The notes beneath the pieces were generated by a model. That model was not told the origin of the DNA, did not search any database, and saw nothing but the letters and a program-made list of their open reading frames with translations. Shown one piece after another: positions 44,858 through 54,070 of a stretch of DNA of 64,000 bases. The stretch covers positions 1 through 64,000 of the forward strand of contig NZ_JBBNAD010000004.1 of assembly GCF_037996765.1 (NCBI RefSeq), in the 5' to 3' direction. Numbering within the stretch: position 1 is the first letter of the stretch; every line of letters starts with the position of its first letter. The position numbers and the translations under genes were made by a program. This DNA comes from Bdellovibrio sp. GT3 (lineage in GTDB: Bacteria > Bdellovibrionota > Bdellovibrionia > Bdellovibrionales > Bdellovibrionaceae).

Positions 44858-45505
44858 GTGCTAAAGCAAAATGGAGGAAGCTATTTTGGAAATAAAAAAC
44901 CCAGTGATTCCACTGGGTTTAAATATAAAGATAATAAATTGTTACTTCTGCGAAGCAGAAGTGTAGACAGCCATTTTTCCCAGCCAAAGGCTGGAGAGAA
45001 AAATGGTCGCCCGAACCCACCCTTATGCGAACCTTTCCAACTATTTGATATTGTTAAGATAAACTTCCATACAAAAGAAGATAATTCGAAGGAAATAGCC
45101 GTTCTCTATCGAAAAGGGCTGTCACTGCGCGATATAGGCAAAGAGCTAAATATCTCCAAAACAATGGTTAGAAGTAATTTACTTAAAGATGGCGTAGAAC
45201 TCCGTCCCAAGGACCCAACCCCTGCCCAGGTCAGCCAATGGCGAATTCGAAAAACGAAATCACCGCCGCCCTTTGGATATTGTTACTTCCAAGGGGAGCT
45301 AGTTAAGAACCCGATTGAGTACGACGTATTACTTAAGATTCATCGTCAGTGGAAAGAGGGGCGGGATGCCAATGAAATCACTCGCTACCTCAATACGAAG
45401 AAGCTCAAGCCTCGGAAGGCCAAAGCTTGGCACAATAAAGCAGTCAAAAAGATCTTGGCGAGATTTGAATCAAAAAAAATTGTTATCAAAGGAGAAAAAA
45501 TATGA
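44858..45505 (+). pseudogene. Serine recombinase fragment (helix-turn-helix plus recombinase domain)
   Basis: From about 45085 onward this frame encodes IAVLYRKGLSLRDIGKELNI, a resolvase-type helix-turn-helix, then PPFGYCYFQGELVKNPIEYD and ITRYLNTKKLKPRK, the start of the 'recombinase' DNA-binding domain of large serine recombinases. The catalytic domain with its Ser nucleophile is absent. Upstream of 45049 the frame crosses three hairpins and looks non-coding. Only a late in-frame ATG (45164) exists. The stop overlaps the start of the 56-codon gene at 45502 (ATGA), so translation through this point was once, or still is, real. A matching C-terminal piece lies at 53566. Confidence 0.6.
44897..45006. 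repeat. Cluster of three perfect hairpins at left edge of the accessory region
   Basis: Three inverted repeats follow one another: 44897-44920 (AAACCCAGTG/CACTGGGTTT), 44944-44962 (ACTTCTGC-GAA-GCAGAAGT) and 44971-45006 (CCATTTTTC and CCAGCC against GGCTGG and GAAAAATGG). The first could be a terminator. The whole cluster resembles structured ends of mobile elements. It lies just left of the recombinase fragment. Confidence 0.55.
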
Positions 45506-45672
45506 ACTTATCAGATTTAATTTTTTGGAGCGCCACAATCATTACCGGACTCACAGGGGCATACAACATTGACGATATTCAAAGAGTCGTTTTGAAAGCT
45601 CAGGCAAAGATCTTATATGAATCGAGAACCTCTACGTGGGGAAGTCCCAGAGTATTTTCTGATAAAGATTAG
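45502..45672 (+). CDS. 56-residue hypothetical protein coupled to the recombinase fragment
   Basis: This short gene has an AAGGAG ribosome site 7 bases before its ATG and overlaps the upstream stop codon (ATGA). It encodes MNLSDLIFWSATIITGLTGA, a possible single membrane helix, then a basic amphipathic region ending VFSDKD. I recognise no family. The coupling suggests that it belongs to the former mobile element rather than to the metal operon. Confidence 0.5.
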   Translation: MNLSDLIFWSATIITGLTGAYNIDDIQRVVLKAQAKILYESRTSTWGSPRVFSDKD

Positions 45673-45708
45673 CTTTTTGTTGAGCCTTGAAATTCAAAGA
45701 TAGAATTG

Positions 45709-45748
45709 ATGTCCGATTTAGAGGGATTTTTTATTCTGAATCGGACAT
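45709..45748. repeat. 10-bp inverted repeat with 20-base loop
   Basis: ATGTCCGATT (45709-45718) and AATCGGACAT (45739-45748) are perfect inverted copies. They lie between two genes that point at each other and just outside the minus-strand gene remnant. They could act as a terminator or mark a recombination end. Confidence 0.45.
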
Positions 45749-45753
45749 AGAAC

Positions 45754-46032
45754 CTACTTTGCCAACCATTGAGCATAAGCTTGAATGTCGATCATGGGAA
45801 CAGTTCCGCTAAATTGAAGTTGGTAAATCAATTTAAACAAAAAAGCTGTGGCAGGCTTTCCACCTTCGTGCACAACATACTTTTTATCCGCATCGAGATG
45901 AAAGTATCCGTGAGCAGCAACACAACCGATGTCTATGCTTTGGATGAAAAGTGGTCCCTTAATCCGAAACTGAATCTTTGCCTCGGAAAACCCAGTTCGA
46001 AACGGAAAAAGAAAGTCGAAAAAAGGTAATAT
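45754..46032 (-). pseudogene. Gene remnant without start codon
   Basis: On the minus strand 92 codons stay open from just after a TAA to a TAG at 45754, with protein-like composition: IKGPLFIQSIDIGCVAAHGY, FHLDADKKYVVHEGGKPATA, then LIYQLQFSGTVPMIDIQAYA. The only ATG is 12 codons before the end, so no normal start exists. It looks like the C-terminal part of a protein that lost its N-terminus when the region was rearranged. The opposite-strand frame here (45769-46029) is a shadow. No family is recognised. Confidence 0.45.
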
Positions 46033-46042
46033 TTAGGATCGG

Positions 46043-52029: not shown

Positions 52030-52031
52030 GG

Positions 52032-53333
52032 ATGTCAAGAAGTATGAGCCAAGTTTTAAAAATTGAGACACAGTTGTTGTTAGGACGGTTGCTAACCCGT
52101 TCTGGAGATCAGGCTTGGGACTTTATTGTGCCATTCGCATTACTTCATGTCTTTCCAGGAAAGTTACAAATTGCAGCGCTCTATTATTTGATCATCAAGA
52201 TCGGAACATTTCTACTAACACCCTGGGTTGGTAAGTGGATTGACTCAAATCAACGCGGTAAGGTCGTTAAAATTGGAGTGTGGGTCCAATTCTTCGCGAT
52301 CTTAGGCGGTATTCTTTGTTTTTATCTTTTAGATGGCTCAGTTCATAACAAATTCATTTATGTTGAAGATGGATTAGTAAAACCTCTTTTTGCATTGCTT
52401 TCGTTTTTTGGCATTATGGCTTCCCTAGGTTCTCTTATTACAGATATCTCTGTTGGAAATGATTTGGCACCGTCGCTTATACCTGCAGAGAAGTTGACTA
52501 AGTTTAATAGCTGGTTGCGCCGAATAGATTTGGCAACGGAAGTTGGAGCGCCAATCGTTGCGGGTATCTTATTCGCATTGGAGTCTCCACATATCCATCT
52601 GTTGGGGCTTTTAATTGTGGCTATCTGGAATTTAACTTCGTTTGTCCCAGAATATTTTCTCCTGTTAAATGTGATACGAAAATCGGGTCTTCATATAAAG
52701 GAAACCAATGCCACTAAAAGTTGGAAAGAACTTTTCCATTTTAATTATAAAGAAGCGGTTTCTAATCCTATCTTTTGGTTGATCTTTAGTTACGCACTTC
52801 TTTGGCTTTCCGTACTGAGTCCGCATGGGGTGTTGTTGGCTGGCTATCTAAAAGATAAGATGGAGTTGCCGGAAGGCGAAATCGGTCTATTCCGTGGCCT
52901 TGGAGCTGTATTTGGTCTCATTTCGACGGTGTCGTTTCCATATCTTGTTAAAAAGACTGGTCTCATAGAAAGCGCTAAACTCCATCTTGCGTTTCAAGGT
53001 TTTACGTTGACTGTCGGAATTACTGCTTTTGCTGTTAGGGTGCAGGGTGGTGTTTATATTTTTCTAACCTGTGTTCTTTTGTCGCGAATTGGACTTTACG
53101 GATTTTCCAACGGTGAGTTTGAACTTCGACAAAGACTCATCCCAGAAAAAAAGCGTGGTGAGTTGAATTCATTGAGTTACTTAACAACTACGATGGCAAC
53201 TTTAGTGCTATTCAGTGCAGGAAGTTTGTTGCCTAGTACGGAAGATTTTAAATACTTGGTATTTGCCTCACTTGCAGCAGTCGTGCTTGCAAACGTCGTT
53301 TTCTTTAAATGGGCGAAAGGAAAAGAATTATAA
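52032..53333 (+). CDS. Ferroportin homologue (BbFPN-like metal exporter)
   Basis: This 433-residue MFS-fold protein has about twelve helices. From memory it matches the Bdellovibrio ferroportin of known structure very closely: IETQLLLGRLLTRSGDQAWD, ITDISVGNDLAPSL, FNSWLRRIDLATEVGAP, WNLTSFVPEYFLL and NGEFELRQRLIPE. The Asp in GDQAWD and Asn in WNLTSF belong to the metal site. The family exports Fe(II) and also Co, Ni and Mn. GGGGGATGGG precedes ATG 52032. It is divergent from the metal sensor and directly coupled to a second sensor-like gene. Confidence 0.93.
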   Translation: MSRSMSQVLKIETQLLLGRLLTRSGDQAWDFIVPFALLHVFPGKLQIAALYYLIIKIGTFLLTPWVGKWIDSNQRGKVVKIGVWVQFFAILGGILCFYLLDGSVHNKFIYVEDGLVKPLFALLSFFGIMASLGSLITDISVGNDLAPSLIPAEKLTKFNSWLRRIDLATEVGAPIVAGILFALESPHIHLLGLLIVAIWNLTSFVPEYFLLLNVIRKSGLHIKETNATKSWKELFHFNYKEAVSNPIFWLIFSYALLWLSVLSPHGVLLAGYLKDKMELPEGEIGLFRGLGAVFGLISTVSFPYLVKKTGLIESAKLHLAFQGFTLTVGITAFAVRVQGGVYIFLTCVLLSRIGLYGFSNGEFELRQRLIPEKKRGELNSLSYLTTTMATLVLFSAGSLLPSTEDFKYLVFASLAAVVLANVVFFKWAKGKEL

Positions 53334-53572
53334 TGGCCGAACATACACATACGAGAGCAGAAGAAGTTCAAATGCATTTGCGGGCCGCCGAACAAGGGCT
53401 ACAAGCTATTCAAAATATGATTGAAAAAGGTCAGTCCTGCGTGAGCATAGTTCAGCAACTAACAGGGATTATGAATCGTCTTGCTGATTGTAGAGCTATG
53501 GTCGCACGGGATCATATTGCCTCGTGCATTCGCACAGCGGTGATTGGCAAATTCAGTCGAGAGGTAAGCTAA
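53333..53572 (+). CDS. Second CsoR-like protein, possibly without DNA binding
   Basis: This 79-residue protein begins on the last base of the ferroportin stop (TAATG) behind AAGGA, so translation is coupled. Cys36, His61 and Cys65 reproduce the CsoR metal site exactly. Compared with the first sensor, the basic helix KRLKRAKGH is replaced by MHLRAAEQG, and the second helix also lacks basic residues, so DNA binding may be lost. The N-terminus HTHTRAEE offers extra ligands. It could be a metallochaperone for ferroportin or a partner that mixes with the repressor. Its 3' end directly abuts a recombinase fragment. Confidence 0.8.
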   Translation: MAEHTHTRAEEVQMHLRAAEQGLQAIQNMIEKGQSCVSIVQQLTGIMNRLADCRAMVARDHIASCIRTAVIGKFSREVS

Positions 53573-53853
53573 CTCAAGAGGCATTGCAGGTTATTTCCGA
53601 CGACTTGAATAAATTGGCGCAAGAGAAAAAGGTTCTGAAGGACTATCTGGATGGTCTTAATGAAATGAAAGTGGATCAAGAGGATATTGAGGTTAGAGGA
53701 GAATTACTTTTTGAAAGACTAGAAGAGTTTGAAAAGGGATGGGCGAAGGCTCCGCAATCACAGCAAAAGATCCTTTTAAAAAGAGTTATCAGAAATGTTG
53801 TAACTCTGATTGATGGAATTAAAATTAATTATCGGTTGCGTGATGGAATAGAT
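53566..53853 (+). pseudogene. C-terminal coiled-coil fragment of a large serine recombinase
   Basis: This open segment, without its own start, encodes LTQEALQVISDDLNKLAQEK, then a long Glu/Lys helix and QQKILLKRVIRNVVTLIDGI plus INYRLRDG, the typical C-terminal coiled coil and last strand of large serine recombinases. The frame stays open to 54126 through the antisense of tRNA-Pro, which shows up as RIRTYDPLVPNQ. Catalytic, helix-turn-helix and zinc-ribbon parts are missing here; the first half of the DNA-binding region lies at 45085-45505 on the same strand. Confidence 0.65.
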
Positions 53854-53993
53854 GAAAAAAGAAATCAGGGTATTGCCCCGGGATCTGATTTAAAAAATGA
53901 AAATGTCATTGAACTTGCGTCTGGATTCCGCGAAAAAGGGTCTTTAGGGAACTCTAGGGACTTGAAGGTCCTAGGTTCGCTTAAAGTAAGAAA

Positions 53994-54070
53994 TGGTCGG
54001 GGAGATAGGATTCGAACCTACGACCCTCTGGTCCCAAACCAGATGCGCTACCAGACTGCGCTACTCCCCG
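53994..54070 (-). tRNA. tRNA-Pro (anticodon UGG)
   Basis: On the minus strand the 77 bases fold as a full cloverleaf: acceptor CGGGGAG/CTCCCCG, D-arm GCGC/GCGC, anticodon stem TCTGG/CCAGA around TTTGGGA (anticodon TGG), T-arm GTAGG-TTCGAAT-CCTAT, discriminator A and an encoded CCA. The 3' end points at the metal cassette, the usual orientation for an integration site. Confidence 0.97.

Follow-up and report, generated by a model that had tools for sequence, protein, structure and literature searches.

The 64,000-nt stretch of Bdellovibrio sp. GT3 analyzed here (contig NZ_JBBNAD010000004.1, positions 1–64,000; hereafter, the window) carries an island of ∼9.0 kb at the 3′ end of a tRNA-Pro gene, with metal-export genes between two pieces of a serine recombinase. 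We interpret it, with a probability of roughly 0.87, as a decayed integrative island of a family of large serine recombinases that target tRNA 3′ ends, carry the attachment site attP inside their own gene, and have that gene split on integration. At the level of sequence, comparison with relatives demonstrates that the integrase gene contains attP, that integration splits it at the attachment core, and that the tRNA is restored. The placement of attP inside the gene follows from the frame agreement between the two parts, from the existence of one-piece genes, and from the conservation of the severed modules, most of which have no ATG of their own.

The island is delimited by a 9-bp core, AAATGGTCG, present at both ends on the + strand. 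The left copy (attL, 45001–45009) lies on the host-flank side and forms the join of the empty site. The identical right copy (attR, 53991–53999) contains the complement of the tRNA CCA end, the discriminator, and the first stem bases of tRNA-Pro(TGG) (53994–54070, − strand), the integration target, which the integrase open reading frame (ORF) enters in antisense. Five relatives (G002, G006, G011, G012, and G023) have an empty tRNA-Pro site, as the earlier note on this DNA had suggested looking for, and in all five the window flank at 44943–45009 joins 53991 onward directly with a 9-bp overlap. The crossover is therefore placed at the tRNA 3′ end, with the CCA end restored by the core. End repeats, one of them inside the tRNA 3′ end, and relatives with the site empty are the features of a tRNA genomic island; the 9-bp core escaped a repeat search set to at least 14 nt, and base composition gave no sharp island signature in the window. 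Precise islands and empty sites imply that the integrase was once active in recombining attP with its target site, attB.

The left piece belongs to a + strand ORF at 44858–45505, the first ∼50 codons of which, as called mechanically, are host flank; the element part begins at the core. In Pfam, the 3′ part of this ORF hits Recombinase (E 3.5e-6) and HTH_38 (E 9e-5). From 45010 to 45505 (+ strand), it encodes a helix–turn–helix (HTH) and a recombinase-domain-like part, in the frame of the integrase at the other end and lacking a start codon from the core to the HTH. The HTH (45080–45230) shows a resemblance to Cbp1, a protein that binds CRISPR repeats (NCBIfam E 6.6e-9, far below the cut-off). 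The right piece (53545–53990, + strand) is an integrase remnant comprising the coiled coil and the C-terminal part up to the core, and its ORF runs from 53545 through the core and across the tRNA to 54126. A Pfam search gives this piece no name; its identity comes from the ORFs of relatives. When the tRNA tail is included, the piece shares 52% identity with residues 410–595 of a relative's complete 604-aa serine recombinase ORF, and against complete recombinase ORFs of about 600 aa, the identity is 56% (G016) and 52% (G021). About 410 N-terminal residues are deleted, so that the window copy lacks the catalytic, central recombinase, and zinc-ribbon domains. At the core, the tRNA-end ORF reads NGR followed by GDRIRTYDPL (antisense tRNA), and the far-end module ORF reads NGR followed by PNPPLCEPFQL in the same frame.

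Much of what the earlier note had read from the letters alone is borne out, with slightly changed coordinates: two recombinase pieces on one strand with metal genes between them, the right piece running into the 3′ end of tRNA-Pro, and the catalytic and zinc-ribbon parts missing. Relatives and empty sites likewise support its view that both pieces come from one recombinase gene, in an integrated element ending at tRNA-Pro. The order of the pieces, which it called natural, turned out to be reversed. Intact relatives (G021, G016, G028, and G060) have a resolvase catalytic domain, a recombinase domain, a zinc ribbon, and a coiled coil, and because they own a recombinase domain, the left piece represents an additional C-terminal module, located behind the coiled coil when the element is a circle. 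On the same ground, we rejected a natural-order split of a single recombinase. Homologues of the left piece are mostly a separate ORF of 160–200 aa at the other end of the islands.

Evidence for a split gene comes from the reading frame. In all 27 of the 27 integrase/module pairs with an assigned core (21 genomes; 22 pairs in a first frame test and five in a later one, leaving out pair G143, the weak pair G075, and locus G087 C2), the core stands in the same frame at both ends and is open into the module. Cores were assigned as matches that include the tRNA end, about 50–110 nt before the HTH, and a few longer matches elsewhere were discounted as chance. The targets of these pairs are tRNA-Pro, Gln, Ala, Arg, Val, Met, Asn, Asp, and Glu. 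Where an integrase uses a rare frame, the module mirrors it (Ala in G044 and G051, Glu in G018, and Arg in G083), an agreement that is hard to account for other than by a split gene. Among the named genomes, the reading frame continues into a tRNA, in antisense, for 45 of the 68 complete integrase ORFs, and the phase of the core TGG is identical in 39 of 46 integrases. Recombinases of the wider family in metagenome-assembled genomes (MAGs) of Chloroflexota (L156 and L157) also run antisense into tRNA-Asn; the habit may extend beyond Bdellovibrionota.

One-piece ORFs that join integrase and module were found in G028 (784 aa) and in one Oligoflexia MAG (738, 767, and 793 aa; L268, L269, and L270), the three genes of the latter differing from one another. 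In G011, an in-frame integrase–module junction lies between tandem elements near tRNA-Gln, and the integrase in question has an upstream stop. This element array (L034, L042, and L043) ends at tRNA-Gln, and the stop of its inner integrase also occurs in a very similar copy in G021 (L039). The G028 gene is probably a tandem junction too, since another integrase of the family lies at a tRNA-Met 25 kb away. Both parts are under purifying selection, strong for the module (dN/dS 0.05–0.11) and evident for the intact integrase (dN/dS 0.07). The interval from core to HTH contains no ATG in 25 of 30 modules and none of ATG, GTG, or TTG in 16 of 30. Taken together, the two defining properties of a self-splitting integrase, attP within the coding sequence and a gene split on integration, are seen in the 27 pairs, the one-piece ORFs, and the empty sites.

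An alternative is that the module is a separate accessory gene at attL, for example, for a directionality factor, and that its frame agrees with the integrase because of an ancestral fusion. The module is indeed conserved and a separate ORF of about 160–200 aa in most genomes, and in some copies a GTG/TTG or an ATG might serve as the start. However, most copies lack an ATG before the HTH, conservation begins about 10 codons past the core, the frame always equals that of the integrase even when it is a rare one, and intact one-piece ORFs exist. We therefore regard an accessory gene as improbable.

Further support for attP within the gene comes from its arms. In the window, the left arm GGTTCG (53974–53979, + strand) lies exactly 20 nt before the TGG of the core, and the right arm GCGAACC (45027–45033, + strand) places CGAACC at +24 from TGG, the mirror of GGTTCG at −20. 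With sequences aligned at TGG and offsets counted from it, GGTTCG occurs at exactly −20 within one mismatch in 30 of 60 integrase genes (19 exact; mean of 0.5 at other offsets), and CGAACC occurs at +24 within one mismatch in nine of 30 modules (mean of 0.2 at other offsets). Neither count was reached in any of 300 shuffles. The target tRNAs carry CGAACC, in the T arm, at +19 (59 of 60 within one mismatch). The attP arms are thus inverted and symmetric about +4/+5, and the attB motif, the tRNA T arm, lies 5 bp nearer the core. Serine integrases are known to have the attP zinc-domain motif 5 bp farther from the center than in attB (PMC3783163), and the half-site motif of this family is displaced from the crossover by the same 5 bp. 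In frame, GGTTCG encodes Gly-Ser, and the codons GGT TCG are used in 19 of 21 cases compared with about 5% expected from codon use, so the motif is kept as a DNA sequence; an origin of the motif in the protein alone was rejected on this count. We infer that the enzyme reads the T arm common to tRNAs, and that the family can therefore use many tRNA genes. Directly before the left arm, within the integrase gene, a hairpin (CTAGGGAC ... GTCCTAG, 53953–53973) has similar counterparts in G021 and G016; it may act as a terminator preventing read-through into the tRNA.

These data suggest the following mechanism. In the excised circle, the gene would be continuous, encoding the catalytic domain, recombinase domain, zinc ribbon, coiled coil, attP, and the module with HTH and recombinase-like part, with a product of ∼740–790 aa (the observed one-piece ORFs are 738–793 aa). 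Its attP combines two inverted GGTTCG arms with a short core, TGGNNN, from which the tRNA 3′ end is rebuilt. Crossover at the core splits the gene. The N-terminal part, which keeps every catalytic and DNA-binding domain, remains at the tRNA and gains a tail from its antisense strand; the C-terminal module ends up on the opposite side of the island, mostly without a start codon. The long form would presumably act in the circle, to integrate, and the short form after integration.

What the loss of the module does is more speculative. In known integrases, the coiled coil governs direction. The modeled module combines a three-helix HTH and a recombinase-domain-like part, two small DNA-binding domains predicted with low to moderate confidence, and this model is compatible with additional contacts to DNA next to the coiled coil. 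A structure search gave only weak matches, to paired-type DNA-binding domains and serine-integrase recombinase domains, none with E < 1e-3. Losing the module might change the direction or reversibility of the reaction, for instance if the short form favored excision or if the integrated state were locked; the odds are against any one such role. Equally tentative is the wider proposal that a long enzyme in the circle and a short one in the chromosome let gain and loss of the module set direction without a directionality factor, with the T-arm motif governing target choice.

Several observations weigh against the split-gene interpretation. The pairs are related, so that 27 agreements do not amount to 27 independent events; pair G143 is not among them, and pair G075 is weak. 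The one-piece genes may in part be tandem junctions, and some modules carry an ATG, GTG, or TTG after the core as a possible translation start. The +24 arm is present in under a third of modules, the protein models are of low to moderate confidence, and no circular molecule or attP PCR product is in evidence. Among plasmid and phage records, none covered 80% of the one-piece protein, and hence there was no circular record; viral contigs gave distant recombinases only (identity ≤36%).

A comparison with relatives showed that island ends are maintained while contents vary. Orthologues of both window pieces lie at both island ends in other species. In G021 and G016, a complete integrase stands at the tRNA and the module at the far island end, with other genes between them; the G021 relative is a 41-kb version with conjugation genes and resistance–nodulation–division (RND) pumps. 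A second island, in G008 (L032:1-11543), keeps both pieces and the tRNA-Pro core with similarly truncated ends, and its cargo of an RND pump, an outer-membrane protein, and a 764-aa protein differs from the metal cargo of the window. A far smaller element, of about 4.7 kb (L115:2023-6806), consists of the module, a few small genes, the integrase, and tRNA-Pro, with the core AAAGAATGGTCG at both ends. Because of its diversity, the module profile did not lend itself to pattern-based scans of collections.

This variety bears on the proposal of the earlier note that a metal-resistance cassette entered a resident serine recombinase gene or took the place of its middle part. That proposal has in its favor the metal genes between the pieces and the missing catalytic half. 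Against it, relatives have the same end pieces around different cargo and an integrase that is complete, the domain encoded by the left piece is not the central one that is missing, and the join in the empty site falls precisely on the attachment core, which is where the split sits. The arrangement that the note itself held to be at odds with cassette entry, both pieces in relatives with no metal genes between them, is largely what occurs, with other genes at that place in G021, G016, and G008. We consider cassette entry very improbable, and indeed refuted by relatives such as G021 and G016, in which the integrase is complete. Two unrelated remnants brought together by chance, which each piece alone might suggest as a fragment without a catalytic domain, can be dismissed, as the pair recurs at island ends in many species on the same strand and in the same order and frame.

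The cargo of the window's island lies within 46043–53572. On the − strand are genes for a small protein, a TolC-like protein, a 152-aa protein, a CusA/CzcA RND pump, a His-rich protein, and a RicR/CsoR-like repressor, and on the + strand those for a ferroportin-like protein and a second CsoR-like protein. The metal pump operon (46043–51745), with its RND pump and TolC-like gene, has no recognizable membrane-fusion gene (CusB/CzcB) in the island. None of the island genes tested belongs to a type IV secretion or transfer family, so the island does not qualify as an integrative conjugative element (ICE). Integrase homology begins near 53544, inside the 3′ end of the second CsoR-like gene (53309–53572), the last residues of which are borrowed from the integrase remnant.

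The loss of the catalytic half, with its breakpoint near 53544, is the sole feature specific to this decayed island. The island is unable to move by itself because ∼410 N-terminal residues are deleted and metal genes occupy it, and it most likely represents a stranded relic from a family of metal-carrying elements that uses this tRNA. As an addition to the split-gene reading rather than its opposite, the island might be a nonautonomous one that keeps attL and attR and is moved in trans by a related integrase. Both att cores and arms are intact, and the G008 island has similarly truncated ends with other metal cargo. On the other hand, the window's genome contains one distant recombinase only and no further close integrase from this group, and the G008 truncation is likely an independent loss, as an insertion sequence (an IS3-like transposase, recognized by eye) lies beside the truncated integrase. 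Movement in trans is therefore unlikely, if less so than the rivals above.

Self-splitting by integration was previously described almost only for archaeal elements, and the nearest precedents are the archaeal suicidal integrases and a remark on DsiB. Our literature search, with many subscription papers outside it, turned up no description of serine integrases that target tRNAs and have a C-terminal module split off. As in tRNA genomic islands and ICEs, insertion occurs at the tRNA 3′ end, the tRNA is restored, and the cargo is variable, with conjugation genes in the G021 relative. Such islands are usually made by tyrosine integrases (PMC4383910), whereas here the enzyme is a serine recombinase and the repeated core is only about 6–15 bp. 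With large serine integrases of the A118/LI type (PMC3783163), the family shares the domain order (catalytic, recombinase, zinc ribbon, coiled coil) and the 5-bp attP shift; it differs in having attP in the coding sequence, an extra C-terminal module with HTH and recombinase-like part, and the tRNA T arm as attB motif. A T-arm rule would account for the wide choice of tRNA genes open to one family whose core has about six bases in common, and it matters for detecting such islands and for integrase tools.

DsiB of Dehalococcoides is a CcrB-like serine recombinase whose 3′ end likewise lies over the attachment site into an RNA gene, and McMurdie (2011) noted that it overruns the site in ssrA and suggested that full function may require the circle (PMC3146451). 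The ssrA islands also have a small partner recombinase, DsiA. Its target is ssrA, whereas here the targets are tRNAs, and the best NCBIfam model for our family, CcrB, scores far below the cut-off; a conserved C-terminal module, a frame test, one-piece genes, and attP arms are not described for DsiB in the section consulted. The archaeal suicidal tyrosine integrases (SSV1, pTN3, and pT26-2) also have attP within an integrase gene that is split on integration and in one piece only in the excised form (PMC8371274). A 2021 review found integrases that disrupt their own gene only in archaea, as tyrosine enzymes (PMC8371274); contrary to that statement, we describe a bacterial serine family that splits its own gene across many Bdellovibrionota genomes and tRNA targets. 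In SSV-type integrases, a tyrosine recombinase is split into inactive parts, whereas here the tRNA-side part of a serine enzyme keeps the catalytic domain together with the other core and DNA-binding domains, and an extra C-terminal module is cut off. The catalytic half survives integration, making this family a testable case of direction control through a changed enzyme C terminus.

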